DNA from: a bacterium
GTDB lineage: Bacteria; Oederibacteriota; CAKKQC01
NCBI GenBank assembly: GCA_919901855.1
Contig: CAKKQC010000052.1
Span: 1-15,517 of the forward strand
Direction: 5' to 3'
Length of the DNA: 15,517 nucleotides
Shown: positions 8,197 to 13,429 of the stretch, one piece after another
How the letters are laid out: the number at the start of each line of letters is the position of its first letter
How positions within the stretch are numbered: the stretch's first letter is position 1
Notes under the pieces: model-generated
Told to the model about the DNA's origin: nothing
Databases searched by the model: none
What the model saw: the letters and a program-made list of their open reading frames with translations, nothing else
Position numbers and translations under genes: made by a program

Positions 8197-8361
8197 TCTC
8201 AGCTAAGGATTCGACAGCCTTCGCGGCACGCGGATGGTTCTGACGAGTTCCCCTGAAGGGGCGGCCTACTTCATGAAGACCCCGGGCATCAGAATGCCAG
8301 GGCCCATGTCCGGCCGGCTGAGACCGATTTCGAGTGCATATAAATGGAGGTGACGACTCAC
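8197..8361 (+). promoter_or_regulatory. Long, hairpin-rich 5' leader of rpsU
   Basis: The leader contains CCCCTGAAGGGG (8250-8261), the palindrome CTTCATGAAG (8269-8278) and GGCAT-CAGA-ATGCC (about 8285-8298). CTCAGC near the predicted start can pair with GCTGAG near 8316-8321. It ends in a strong GGAGGTGA (8346-8353). Such a leader suggests control of S21 or the whole operon, but it fits no known leader class that I recognise. Confidence 0.35.
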
Positions 8362-8571
8362 ATGGCAGAAGTCGTGGTGAAGGATTACGATTCCTTCGAA
8401 ACCGCACTTCGCCGGTTCAAGAAGAAGGTCCAGGACGCGGGTCTCCTGCAGGAGATGCGGAAGCGCGAGTATTACGAGGCCCCGTCGGTCCGCCGGAAGA
8501 AGAAGCTGCTCGCCGCGATCCGCAAGGAACGCCGGCGGCAGAAGCGCGAAAGCGAAAAGGCAGGAGCCTGA
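8362..8571 (+). CDS. rpsU: 30S ribosomal protein S21
   Basis: This 69-aa, highly basic protein of the small ribosomal subunit helps translation initiation at the 3' end of 16S rRNA. The family pattern is clear: [20 protein letters not shown], then [20 protein letters not shown], then a lysine/arginine tail. The ATG at 8362 is preceded by GGAGGTGA at eight bases. An in-frame ATG at 8344 lies upstream of that site and is rejected. It is the first gene of a macromolecular-synthesis operon (S21, YqeY, primase, sigma-like), behind the promoter at 8162-8190. The stop is five bases before yqeY. Confidence 0.96.
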
Positions 8572-9052: not shown

Positions 9053-9366
9053 CGGACCGCTCGGCAGACCGGGCGCGGGTCCTGTCGGAGGTCTGAAGGA
9101 CGGGTCCTGTCAGAGGGCGAGGGCGCGGGTCCTGTCGGAGGTCTCGTCAGTGTCCACTCGCCTTGGCGGCTGAGGCCAGAGCGACCTGCAGGGCGATCCG
9201 ATTGCCGGCGTGCGTCTGCCGCACAGGAGTGCGGTCAGCCGCAGCGGGATGCGCTGACTTGAGACCGCTGTTGCCGCGTTCGGCTCGTGGAACTGACTTC
9301 GACCTCCTCCTCCCACGCCCTCGCCCCTTGCCACCCGTCCCCGCGACCTCCTCCTCCCGCGCCCGG
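9053..9366. repeat. Dispersed palindromic element, copy 2 (about 310 bp)
   Basis: Homologous to 6589-6809 in the same orientation, but longer because both ends are internally repeated. The left end CGGGTCCTGTCGGAGGTCT recurs at 9076, 9101 (variant CGGGTCCTGTCAGAGG) and 9126, an exact 25-bp period. The right end GACCTCCTCCTCCC recurs at 9301 and 9345. CCGGGCGCGGG (9069-9079) and CCCGCGCCCGG (9356-9366) are perfect inverted termini. It fills the whole gene-free stretch between yqeY and the glycosylase gene, and its last base is the first base of that gene's apparent GTG. Confidence 0.8.
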
Positions 9367-9926
9367 TGAGGACACTGCCCCCTTCCTTCTATAAGAAGAC
9401 GACGCATTGGGTGGCGAGGAGGCTGATCGGGTGCGTCCTCAGACACGGAAAGACGGCGGGGATCATCGTGGAGACGGAGGCGTACACCGGGGAGGACGAT
9501 CCGGGGAGCCATGCGTACAGGGGAAGAAAGACCAGAAACGCGCCCATGTTCGGGCCGGCGGGGCGGGCGTACGTGTACCAGTGCCACATCTGGCCATTGC
9601 TGAACGTGGTGACGGAGAGAGAAGGAACGCCGGGGGCGGTCCTCATCCGGGCGCTGATCCCGACGGAGGGGCTGGCGATCATGCGGAAGAGGAGAAAGAC
9701 GGAGAAGGACCGGGACCTGACGCGGGGGCCGGGGCGGCTGACGCAGGCGCTCGGGATCACGCTCCGGGACAACCGGAAGGACCTGAGGGGACCGGGGCTC
9801 AGGATCGTCAAGGGGCCAAAGGGATTCAAGTGCCGGATCGCGCGCACCACGCGCATCGGCCTGAAAGGTCCCGCCGCGAAGCTGCCCTGGCGGTATCACG
9901 CAGCGAACTGCCCGTTTGTGTCATAA
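9366..9926 (+). CDS. DNA-3-methyladenine glycosylase (AAG/MPG type)
   Basis: This monofunctional base-excision repair enzyme removes alkylated purines. The 186-aa protein has the family order: LPPSFYKKTTHWVARRLIGC (4-23), the catalytic glutamate in IIVETEAYTGEDDPGSHAYR, TRNAPMFGPAGRAYVYQCHI, NVVTEREGTPGAVLIRAL and LTRGPGRLTQALGI. The usual YVYxxYGxH region is altered to YVYQCHIWPLLNV. The GTG at 9366 gives a sensible N-terminus but has no Shine-Dalgarno and abuts the dispersed repeat; the native initiation region may have been displaced. Arginine codons AGA/AGG are frequent here (as in YRGRKTRN), whereas neighbours use CGC/CGG. The gene is not a usual member of the rpsU-dnaG-rpoD operon, so I infer insertion, probably by transfer. 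Confidence 0.88.
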   Translation: MRTLPPSFYKKTTHWVARRLIGCVLRHGKTAGIIVETEAYTGEDDPGSHAYRGRKTRNAPMFGPAGRAYVYQCHIWPLLNVVTEREGTPGAVLIRALIPTEGLAIMRKRRKTEKDRDLTRGPGRLTQALGITLRDNRKDLRGPGLRIVKGPKGFKCRIARTTRIGLKGPAAKLPWRYHAANCPFVS

Positions 9927-9950: not shown

Positions 9951-11774
9951 ATGATTGACCAGGCCACCCTCGACAAGATCCGCGCCGCCGTCGACATCGC
10001 CGAGATCGTCGGGGAGCACGTCCCGCTGAAGCGCGCCGGGGCGACCAGCCTCAAGGGGCTCTGCCCGTTCCACCCGGAGAAGACGCCGTCGTTCCACGTG
10101 AATACCGCGCTACAGATCTTCAAGTGCTTCGGCTGCGGCGCGGGGGGCAACGCCGCCACCTTCCTCATGAAGATCGAGAACATCCCGTTCCCGGAGGCCG
10201 TGAAGCGGCTGGCCGAGCGGGCCCACATCCCCTTCGCCGACACCGCGAACCCGGAAGAACAGGAGCGCACGCGGCTGCGGCAGTTGCTCGAGACCGCGAC
10301 GTCCCTGTACCAGCGCTCGCTCGCCTCGTCCCCGGCGGCCGCCCGGGCACGGAGCTATCTCGAGTCCCGGCGAATCCCGAAGGAGGCGGTGGCGGCATTC
10401 CGGCTCGGGTTCTCGACCGGCCAGGAAGTCTTCGCGGCCAAGGTCCACCCCGCCCTGCTCCAGCGGGCCGGGCTGGCGGGGCCGGGGCGGGACGGCTCCC
10501 CCACGGACCGCATGCGTGGCCGGCTCGTCATTCCGATCACGGACGACCAGGGCCGGGTCGTCGGGTTCGGCGGCCGGGCGCTCGACGACGAGCAGATGCC
10601 CAAATACCTGAACACCCCCGAAACGCCCGTGTTTCACAAGTCCACGTCGCTCTACGGGCTCTCGCTCGCGGCGAACGCCATCCGCAAGGCGGGCCGGATC
10701 GTGCTCGTGGAGGGCTACTTCGACGTGATCACGCTGCACGCGCTCGGCGTCACGGAGACCGTGGCGTCGCTGGGCACCTCGCTCACGGACGGCCAGCTCC
10801 ACGCGCTCAAACGGTTCGCCCGCGTCCTCCTGATCGTTTATGATGAGGACATGGGCGGAAACGACGCGGCGATCCGCGGACTCGACCTGGCTACCGAGGC
10901 GGGGTTCGAGGTCAAGATCGTGAGACTCCCGGGGTCCAAGGATCCCGACGAGTTCATCCTGGCGAACGGCCGGGACGCGTTTCTGCGCGCCCTCGAGGGC
11001 GCGGCGGGGTCCGAGGCGTCCGACGCCGTCGGCGGCGTCGTCGCGGTCTCGCTCTTCGACTACCGAGTCGAGGTCGCGTCCCGGCACGCGGACCCCACGA
11101 CCCTCCGGGGCAAGCAGGCCATCGTGGCCTCGGTCCTGCCCTATCTGGCCCGGGTGCCCAACGCGATCGAGCGGCACGCGTACGTGCGCCGGCTCGCCGA
11201 CCACCTCCAGATCCGCGAGGCGGACGTCGAGGAGGAGCTGGCCAAGGTTCCGCGGGCGCAGGAGCGCCCCTCGTTCCGGCCGGAGCCGGTCCGGCGCACT
11301 CCCGCGGCCGCCCCGGCATCCGGGTGGCGGGCGGAATCGCTCCTGCTCGCGGGCGTCCTCGCGCACCGGCCCGCGGCGATCCAGGCGCTCTTCGAGCTGC
11401 CGAACGAGGCGTTCCAGACGCCCGACGCGGCCCGGCTCGCGGCGCGCATGAGCGCGCTCCTGCAATCGGGCGAGTCGTTCTCGGTCTCCTCGCTCATGGA
11501 CGAGTTCCAGGATTCCCAGCTCGCGCTCGACCTCCTGTCGAACGCCGAGGCCACCGAGGCCGTCGCCGTTCCAGCGTCCGCCGGAACCGCGCCAGCTGCT
11601 CCTACAGCTGGGGGTTCCGATGCCGCGTGCAAGGAAGCCGCCGCGCACCTGACCGAGGGCTGGCGCCGCCGTAGGCTCAAGGACCTCCAGCGCCAGATCG
11701 AGCAGGCCCGCGACCCGGCCGTGGTCGCCCGCCTGCTCGAGGCCAAGCAGCAGTTGGCGGGGTCGACCCGATGA
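9951..11774 (+). CDS. dnaG: DNA primase
   Basis: DnaG synthesises RNA primers at the replication fork and works with the replicative helicase. The 607-aa protein has the N-terminal CHC2 zinc site (C38, H41, C59, C62), the catalytic core and a Toprim domain with VEGYFDVI (253-260, E254) and YDEDMGG (297-303, D298 and D300). The metal-binding acidic residues are present, though the usual DGD reads DED. The C-terminal helicase-binding region (about 455-607) is interrupted at about 536-560 by an Ala/Pro stretch encoded by a palindrome. The ATG at 9951 follows GGAG by 14 bases, 24 bp after the glycosylase. The stop overlaps the start of the sigma-like gene as ATGA, so the two are coupled. Confidence 0.96.
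   Translation: MIDQATLDKIRAAVDIAEIVGEHVPLKRAGATSLKGLCPFHPEKTPSFHVNTALQIFKCFGCGAGGNAATFLMKIENIPFPEAVKRLAERAHIPFADTANPEEQERTRLRQLLETATSLYQRSLASSPAAARARSYLESRRIPKEAVAAFRLGFSTGQEVFAAKVHPALLQRAGLAGPGRDGSPTDRMRGRLVIPITDDQGRVVGFGGRALDDEQMPKYLNTPETPVFHKSTSLYGLSLAANAIRKAGRIVLVEGYFDVITLHALGVTETVASLGTSLTDGQLHALKRFARVLLIVYDEDMGGNDAAIRGLDLATEAGFEVKIVRLPGSKDPDEFILANGRDAFLRALEGAAGSEASDAVGGVVAVSLFDYRVEVASRHADPTTLRGKQAIVASVLPYLARVPNAIERHAYVRRLADHLQIREADVEEELAKVPRAQERPSFRPEPVRRTPAAAPASGWRAESLLLAGVLAHRPAAIQALFELPNEAFQTPDAARLAARMSALLQSGESFSVSSLMDEFQDSQLALDLLSNAEATEAVAVPASAGTAPAAPTAGGSDAACKEAAAHLTEGWRRRRLKDLQRQIEQARDPAVVARLLEAKQQLAGSTR
11583..11618. repeat. REP-like palindrome inside dnaG
   Basis: GGAACC (11583-11588), CCAGCTG (11592-11598), loop CTCCTA, CAGCTGG (11605-11611), GGTTCC (11613-11618) form a nested stem of 13 paired bases. 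On the minus strand the loop region reads CTGTAGGAGCAG, similar to GTAG-headed REP palindromes. It is in frame and encodes part of an Ala/Pro linker. Confidence 0.6.
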
Positions 11775-12631
11775 CGCGCCCGAAGACGGGCGTTCCGAAG
11801 ACGGCCAGCGCCGGGGGCCCAAAGGCGGCCGTGCCGGCGAAGCCGGCGACCGCGAAAGTGCCCGCGGCGGCGAAGGCCGCGCCCGCCGCCAAGGCCGCGG
11901 CTCCCAAGGGCGCGCCGCTCCTCCCGCCGGTCAAGCCCGCGGGCAAGATGGGGCGGTTCGGCGGCGGTCCCGGCCGGCCGCGCGGCAAGGGCCGCGGCGA
12001 CTACATCCCCCGCGAGGGGTCCGACGAGCCGGGCGCGGAACCGCGCACGACGGACATCGAGACCCTGATCGCGCTGGGCCGCGAGCGCGGGTACCTGACC
12101 TACCAGGAGGTTTCCGACAAGCTCCCGCAGGACACGATGCTGACCGACCAGATCGACGACCTGCTGTCCAAGCTCTCGGAGATGGACATCGAGATCATCG
12201 ACGAGGACGACGCGCGCCAGCGCGAGGCGGAACCAAAGCACAAGGCCAAGCGGGCCCCCGGCGAGGAAGACTCCGCGCCCGAGCCGGAATCCCGGATCGA
12301 CGATCCCGTCCGCATGTACCTCCACGAGATGGGCCAGGTCATGCTCCTGACCCGCGACGAGGAGATCGCGCTGGCCAAGCAGGTCGAGGACGGCGAGAAG
12401 AAGGTGGACGCGGCCCTCTACCAGTCCGACCTCGTCATCAAGGAGCTCCTCCAGCTCGACGCCCGGCTGGCGTCCGGCGAGATCTCGTTGACCGACGCGG
12501 TCAAGGTGGACGGCGAGGGCGAGCTCACGCCCATCCAGGTCAAGCGGATCCGGCGGCGCATCGCGACGATCCTGGCCCGGGTCCGCCGCCTCTGGCTCCA
12601 GTACCAGCGGACCCGCGAACGCAAGGGGTAG
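11771..12631 (+). CDS. RpoD-like protein lacking regions 2-4 (truncated primary sigma factor)
   Basis: This 286-aa product starts with an Ala/Pro/Lys-rich, disordered, basic segment (1-80). Region 1.1 follows (about 92-146, with IETLIALGRERGYLTYQEVS and a LLSKLSEMDIEIIDED helix), then region 1.2 (about 177-212, DDPVRMYLHEMGQVMLLTRD and EEIALAKQVEDGEKKV) and the first helices of the non-conserved region (213-286). It then stops. Regions 2.1-2.4, 3 and 4 are absent and are not found in any frame downstream, because nrdR begins 9 bp later. It therefore cannot bind core RNA polymerase through region 2 or recognise -10/-35 elements as a normal sigma. The position after dnaG, with an ATGA overlap, is the standard rpoD place. 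It may be an in-place deletion, an assembly artefact, or a stand-alone regulator. Coding quality is intact throughout. Confidence 0.85.
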   Translation: MTRPKTGVPKTASAGGPKAAVPAKPATAKVPAAAKAAPAAKAAAPKGAPLLPPVKPAGKMGRFGGGPGRPRGKGRGDYIPREGSDEPGAEPRTTDIETLIALGRERGYLTYQEVSDKLPQDTMLTDQIDDLLSKLSEMDIEIIDEDDARQREAEPKHKAKRAPGEEDSAPEPESRIDDPVRMYLHEMGQVMLLTRDEEIALAKQVEDGEKKVDAALYQSDLVIKELLQLDARLASGEISLTDAVKVDGEGELTPIQVKRIRRRIATILARVRRLWLQYQRTRERKG

Positions 12632-12640
12632 GGTCCCGCC

Positions 12641-13168
12641 ATGAAGTGCCCGTTCTGCGGCCACCAGGAAGACAAGGTCGTGGACTCGCGGGAATCCAAG
12701 GAGGGCGACGCGATCCGGCGGCGCCGCGAATGCCTCGGTTGCCGGCGGCGGTTCACGACCTACGAGCAGATCGAGCAGGCGATGCCCCTGCTCAAGAAGA
12801 AGGACGGCCGGTGGGAGGCGTTCAGCCGGGACAAGCTCATGGGGGGCCTGCGGCGCGCCTGCGAGAAGCGTCCCGTGGGACAGTCCGAGCTCGACACGAT
12901 CGCCGAGGGCATCGAGAAGGAATGCTTCAGCCGGAACGGCCGGGAGGTCACGAGCGCCGAGATCGGGGAGATGGTGATGGCCAAGCTCCACGACCTGGAC
13001 GAGGTGGCCTACGTCCGGTTCGCGAGCGTGTACCGGCAGTTCAAGGACGTCACGCAATTCATGGAGGAAGTCCAGCGCCTGCTCAAGAAAAATGAAGGCC
13101 GGACGGCTTCCGCGGGTCGCACCCCGGGCGCGGTCGAGAAGGAAAAGGGGCCCAAGGCGGTCTCCTAG
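12641..13168 (+). CDS. nrdR: Transcriptional repressor NrdR
   Basis: NrdR is a zinc-ribbon/ATP-cone repressor of ribonucleotide reductase genes; it senses dATP/ATP and binds NrdR boxes. The 175-aa protein begins MKCPFCGHQEDKVVDSRES, with zinc cysteines C3, C6, C31 and C34 and the basic stretch IRRRRECLGCRRRFTTYEQI. The ATP-cone runs from about 48 to 138 (LKKKDGRWEAFSRDKLMGGL ... DEVAYVRFASVYRQFKDV). A tail of about 25 residues rich in Lys/Gly extends beyond the usual 150. The ATG at 12641 has GGGGTAGGG upstream, overlapping the stop of the sigma-like gene. nrdR is not a usual neighbour of dnaG/rpoD; its 5' edge may be the junction of a deletion that removed the rest of rpoD. No NrdR box was identified in the window. 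Confidence 0.95.
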   Translation: MKCPFCGHQEDKVVDSRESKEGDAIRRRRECLGCRRRFTTYEQIEQAMPLLKKKDGRWEAFSRDKLMGGLRRACEKRPVGQSELDTIAEGIEKECFSRNGREVTSAEIGEMVMAKLHDLDEVAYVRFASVYRQFKDVTQFMEEVQRLLKKNEGRTASAGRTPGAVEKEKGPKAVS

Positions 13169-13222: not shown

Positions 13223-13429
13223 ATGGCAATCGACGAAATCACCAAACGGCGGTACGGGCTGTACGTGTTCTGGTCCGGCTACGTCATGCTCATGGCCGGG
13301 TACTACGTCCTCTACCTCCTCGGCGCGAAGCCGGACTACAAGGCCGTTTTCGAAATCCTGGCCCCCGCCCTCATCGTCGGGGCCTTCCCCGTATTCTGGC
13401 TCTCCATCCACCTCGGCACGTTCGACTGA
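13223..13429 (+). CDS. Small two-helix membrane protein, 68 aa
   Basis: Not recognised. The product is short with a cytoplasmic-looking basic start (MAIDEITKRR) and two hydrophobic segments, about residues 12-34 (aromatic, Gly/Tyr-rich) and 42-63, joined by GAKPDYK. The N-terminal MAIDEITKRRYGLY and the tail HLGTFD give no family clue. It has a good AAGGAGG (13205-13211) eleven bases before the ATG, and lies 54 bp after nrdR and 30 bp before the TPR gene, so it probably sits in the same transcript. A TATATT at 13181-13186 could be a -10, but there is no matching -35. A membrane location is predicted from sequence; no function is proposed. Confidence 0.8.
   Translation: MAIDEITKRRYGLYVFWSGYVMLMAGYYVLYLLGAKPDYKAVFEILAPALIVGAFPVFWLSIHLGTFD

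Follow-up and report, generated by a model that had tools for sequence, protein, structure and literature searches.

The primary sigma factor gene rpoD of a bacterium of the phylum Oederibacteriota (GTDB lineage Bacteria; Oederibacteriota; CAKKQC01; GenBank assembly GCA_919901855.1) is represented, at its usual place after dnaG, by a gene for the N-terminal part of the protein, which we call RpoD-N or the N-part; the rest, the C-part, is encoded on another contig of the same genome. RpoD-N lies in a 15,517-nucleotide stretch of contig CAKKQC010000052.1 (C52), referred to here as the window. We consider it probable that the primary sigma-70 gene underwent fission inside the non-conserved region (NCR) and that the N- and C-parts work as two polypeptides. 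Judged from their sequences, these are two intact, complementary and separately encoded genes at distant loci, and the N-part is kept in two genera.

Bacteria cannot do without their primary sigma factor, which is usually regarded as a single chain with its N-terminal region 1 acting in cis: region 1.1 controls access to the DNA channel, and region 1.2 of sigma-70 makes the discriminator contact. Region 1.1 in most bacteria stops free sigma from binding DNA (PMC2758279).

Two complementary parts

RpoD-N (11771..12631, forward strand, as are its parts; 286 amino acids plus stop, ATG start) opens with a basic Ala/Pro/Lys-rich low-complexity tail (residues 1-92; 11771..12046), predicted to be without secondary structure. 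It is followed by region 1.1 (PF03979; residues 93-168; 12047..12274; Pfam E 1e-20), region 1.2 (PF00140; residues 178-210; 12302..12400; Pfam E 1e-14) and the first part of the NCR (residues 213-286; 12407..12628), which ends in a helix predicted at residues 254-285, the last one in the model before the stop codon. Regions 1.1 and 1.2, a feature of group 1 RpoD, both score above the Pfam cut-off; no region 2, 3 or 4 was found by a Pfam search of the N-part, and its best NCBIfam model, RpoD PRK05658, is covered only at positions 15-187 of 631. An earlier note on this DNA, made from the sequence alone, had described the open reading frame as regions 1.1 and 1.2 with only the start of the NCR, had seen no regions 2-4 in the window and had placed nrdR 9 base pairs past the stop; the Pfam and NCBIfam matches bear out the first of these statements, and the other two hold as well (nrdR, 12641-13168, forward strand).

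The C-part (G000:C21:88156-89307; 383 amino acids) is found in the interior of the 279-kilobase contig C21 and is the best region 2 match in its own genome; upstream of it lie a gene for an RNB-domain protein (RNase R-like), smpB and a 60-amino-acid open reading frame. It contains regions 2, 3 and 4 (PF04542, PF04539, PF04545) together with the rest of the NCR, and no region 1 was detected in it by Pfam. The protein begins MTLSPAHRRQRELDRTRRQ and is aligned with intact RpoD from about its eighth residue onward, sharing, when aligned with cut reference sequences, 51-60% identity with the corresponding C-terminal two thirds of the relatives' RpoD; a phylogenetic tree places it with RpoD, far from the group-2 sigma factor of its own genome.

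Taken end to end, the halves leave no segment missing at the junction when set against the intact RpoD of 11 relatives: WLQYQRTRERKG, followed by MTLSPAHRRQRELD, stands opposite LQQRLKKPK, followed by LSEKQNRQLEK, in intact RpoD. In the AlphaFold2 model of one intact relative (L137) the cut corresponds to the bond between residues 211 and 212, in a 6-residue loop between two helices of the NCR (176-207 and 214-236) with a local predicted distance difference test score (pLDDT) of about 88, and the C-part's own ATG falls in the same inter-helix loop. The E. coli sigma-70 fragment 1sig aligns with residues 117-424 of this model over 267 residues at a root-mean-square deviation (rmsd) of 3.0 A, and therefore the cut lies inside the domain that holds region 1.2 together with the NCR and region 2. 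The break accordingly spares every predicted helix, and we infer that the parts would need to meet to rebuild the domain. A Foldseek search with the N-part model matched E. coli sigma-70 chains, with a poor rmsd that reflects a flexible arrangement.

Searches of the genome with region 2, the N-part, region 1.2, region 1.1 and the C-part as queries turned up no single polypeptide with all the regions and hence no full-length RpoD; the N-part is in C52 and the C-part in C21. Region 1.1 occurs once in the genome, at the window locus; region 1.2 occurs at that locus and otherwise only in a single group-2 sigma factor (C60), so that the option, raised earlier, of a remnant whose full-length replacement sits elsewhere finds no candidate. 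The NCR family of proteobacterial type, PF04546, has no match in the genome either, which is uninformative, as it matches only 2 of 14 controls. Because these searches brought up no further region 1.1 protein that could be a primary sigma factor, we infer an essential housekeeping role for the split sigma factor.

Conservation in the sister genus and in the phylum

The sister genus, represented by the only other genome compared from the same family (G001; N-part loci L010 and L104), has the series yqeY, dnaG, truncated rpoD (293 amino acids), nrdR, a small membrane-like protein, a cspA-like gene and secA, with the stop of the truncated rpoD at the corresponding place. The whole N-part is 71% identical between the two genera. 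In region 1.2 (residues 175-212) all 38 of 38 residues are the same, with no nonsynonymous differences at all (pN = 0; ratio of nonsynonymous to synonymous differences, pN/pS, 0.00), region 1.1 shows 86% identity (core residues 93-150) and pN/pS 0.29, and the first NCR part 87% and 0.25. The loose ends are less constrained (pN/pS 0.74 for the N-terminal tail and 0.63 for the last 21 residues); the tail is 48% identical between the genera and is missing or far shorter in the aligned unsplit relatives. For comparison, the same pair of genera gives 0.51 for the whole dnaG and 0.34 for nrdR. Taken as a sequence signature, this pattern is that of a working protein under purifying selection, and the constraint in region 1.1, in region 1.2 and in the first NCR part is what the selection check proposed in the earlier note has returned.

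Elsewhere in the phylum, where 43 further genomes were searched, contig-complete rpoD frames are about 580-700 amino acids long and contain both parts in one frame. Given region 1.1 at 86%, an identity of 69% would be predicted for the first NCR part, and the 87% found is thus on the high side; an equal excess was reached by 9 of 231 unsplit pairs. As evidence for a new interface, the extra conservation is suggestive only and not decisive. Among the listed best-scoring matches to region 1.1 in a sample of 389 genomes, no other clear internal truncation was seen; judged from positions only, the few short frames are near contig starts or resemble short SigA proteins.

The C-part has its counterpart in the sister genus as well, with 96% identity over the 196 amino acids present. 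A tRNA and a gene for an extracytoplasmic function (ECF)-like sigma factor are found downstream in both genera, because of which we take the two C-parts to be the same locus.

Alternative explanations

It could be argued that the C-part does the work of the primary sigma factor by itself, and that the N-part is a free regulator acting in trans on RNA polymerase or the discriminator and not an obligatory subunit. Group-3 and ECF sigma factors do function without region 1, and the N-part is in another operon than the C-part, so its dosage could be set separately. However, the N-part's region 1.2 and NCR helices show the same degree of constraint as their counterparts in intact sigma factors, and the C-part keeps a long remainder of the NCR, which would have no obvious use without the partner helices, and we regard this explanation as unlikely. 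The earlier suggestion of an action in trans survives in a modified form, with the N-part as one of two subunits rather than as a free regulator.

An artefact of assembly or binning, in which an intact rpoD was broken by a chimeric join or the C-part came from another organism, is conceivable in metagenome assemblies of many contigs, as both genomes are. Nevertheless, the N-part stop and the nrdR junction are common to two independently assembled genera, the two parts are interior in different contigs, both have a start or stop of their own and ends that complement each other, and the C-part resembles the copy of the sister genus so closely, with the tRNA downstream in both, that we find such an artefact very improbable. 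Since the second genus has the same gene order and an identical region 1.2, the truncated gene is not a product of misassembly, nor is it a remnant in decay. The view of the earlier note that the frame is intact and does not reflect random decay is strengthened in this way, and the junction comparison that it had proposed gives the same picture: dnaG, truncated rpoD and nrdR recur in the second genus, and the other rpoD genes of the phylum are unsplit.

That the halves are joined into one chain, by a split intein, by trans-splicing of a split intron RNA or by a programmed DNA rearrangement as in sigK, deserves hardly any credence: the ends are exactly complementary and joining would restore full RpoD, yet Pfam finds no intein domain in either part, the flanks match no intron family, 9 base pairs alone separate the N-part stop from nrdR, and the junctions share no sequence beyond chance (longest common run within 260 base pairs 9, against a shuffled mean of 8.4). 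A search of the loci for split introns and riboswitches gave nothing except the tRNA. A split-intein pair of the kind known in cyanobacterial DnaE was considered separately and rejected, as Pfam gives sigma regions only and the parts end and begin within the sigma homology.

Several observations weigh against a split primary sigma factor, or at least reduce the confidence in it. The family is represented by only 2 genomes, each assembled from a metagenome (93% and 83% complete). The G001 contig begins inside the C-part, cutting it at residue 188, so that the 5' end of the C-part gene is visible only in the genome of the window. The C-part ATG there has a weak Shine-Dalgarno spacing, with GGGAG about 18 nucleotides upstream, and its exact start is uncertain. 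Modelled by itself, the N-part reaches modest confidence (pLDDT 63).

A probable mechanism

The most likely course is that fission of the primary sigma gene took place in the ancestor of the family, after which the N-part would have stayed in the rpsU-dnaG-rpoD operon and the C-part would have become a separate gene downstream of smpB. The two polypeptides would probably reassemble non-covalently, through the helical hairpin of the NCR and the packing of region 1.2 on region 2, into one sigma-2 domain. In such a complex the C-part would contact the -10 and -35 elements and core RNA polymerase, and the N-part would supply region 1.2 for the discriminator contact and the support of region 2, as well as region 1.1, which could gate DNA binding as a separate subunit. 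The ratio of N-part to C-part could be regulated, because the genes are in different surroundings, the dnaG operon and the smpB neighbourhood.

A second C-part-like protein

The genome encodes a second RpoD-like protein (G000:C30:36233-37216; L002 1228-2211; 327 amino acids) with regions 2-4 and a shorter NCR remnant, in which Pfam finds no region 1. An extra residue in region 4 is common to it and to the C-parts of C21 and G001, and in the tree it groups with these two, on a long branch and with moderate support (69/98). It may be a paralog that arose after the fission. The G001 contigs did not show this copy; one fragment among them, on contig C185, resembles the end of the group-2 sigma factor of the genome with the window. 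One may speculate, tentatively and with more doubt than confidence, that a single N-subunit with regions 1.1-1.2 is common to two alternative C-subunits, the main one of C21 and the diverged one of C30. If true, the region 1 module would be an exchangeable and separately dosed subunit of the housekeeping holoenzyme.

Surroundings of the two genes

The series of genes in the window is rpsU (8344-8571, identified by its sequence), yqeY, a gene for an MPG-type DNA glycosylase (9366-9926), dnaG for the primase (9951-11774, forward strand), the truncated rpoD, which is interior in its contig, and nrdR. The earlier note had given the order as rpsU-yqeY-dnaG-rpoD, and the glycosylase gene between yqeY and dnaG, which it does not mention, corrects this. 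The dnaG stop overlaps the RpoD-N start codon as ATGA (11771-11774), and the arrangement of the junction with nrdR is identical in the sister genus. Downstream of nrdR, at 13223-13429, there is a 68-amino-acid membrane-like protein, 81% identical in the sister genus and with no Pfam match. The sister genus alone has genes for a VapB antitoxin and a PIN-domain toxin between the DNA glycosylase gene and dnaG (L104 9162-9765).

At the C-part locus, the 60-amino-acid frame between smpB and the C-part (L101 5909-6091) bears a weak likeness to the last part of DUF4032, with an E of 0.003 that does not reach the Pfam cut-off. A 6-codon frame, ATGAGAGACACGCATCCATGA (L001, about 1047-1067), is better spaced after the GGGAG motif than the C-part ATG and ends in a TGA overlapping this ATG; a leader peptide or translational coupling is a possible reading of it.

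Significance and comparison with known systems

A primary sigma factor with region 1 as a separate protein would mean that this essential subunit tolerates fission inside the NCR, and the lineage would offer a natural test of region 1 function in trans. The NCR loop is accordingly a candidate position for the cut when split sigma factors are to be constructed. A further warning is that each part will be called a truncated RpoD by annotation pipelines. The open-access literature searched yielded no account of a primary sigma factor that is split or made of two parts.

Like group 1 RpoD/SigA, the genome encodes regions 1.1, 1.2, the NCR, 2, 3 and 4, with the N-part where rpoD normally stands, next to dnaG, and with high identity to the RpoD of phylum relatives; unlike it, there are two polypeptides from distant loci, a long basic N-terminal tail and a second, diverged C-part. 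The sigK gene of Bacillus subtilis is interrupted by the skin element, and its pieces are rejoined by recombination. It resembles our case in being a sigma gene present as two separated chromosomal pieces, whereas here both parts come with a start and a stop of their own, no common sequence beyond chance was found at the junctions, and the N-part is a separate gene in both genera. Subunits of core RNA polymerase can be split as well, as are rpoC1/rpoC2 of cyanobacteria (PMC2758279), where a normally single essential subunit of RNA polymerase likewise comes as two chains; the difference is that in our case it is not a core subunit but the primary sigma factor. The closest known case among the literature searched is SigO-RsoA of B. 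subtilis, a two-protein sigma factor with sigma-2 and sigma-4 on separate proteins (PMC8103513). Both systems would make a sigma-70-type factor out of two separately encoded proteins needed together. SigO-RsoA, however, is an alternative sigma factor encoded in one operon, while the pair described here would be a primary one, encoded at two loci and cut inside the NCR, with regions 2, 3 and 4 together in the C-part and regions 1.1-1.2 as the separate piece.
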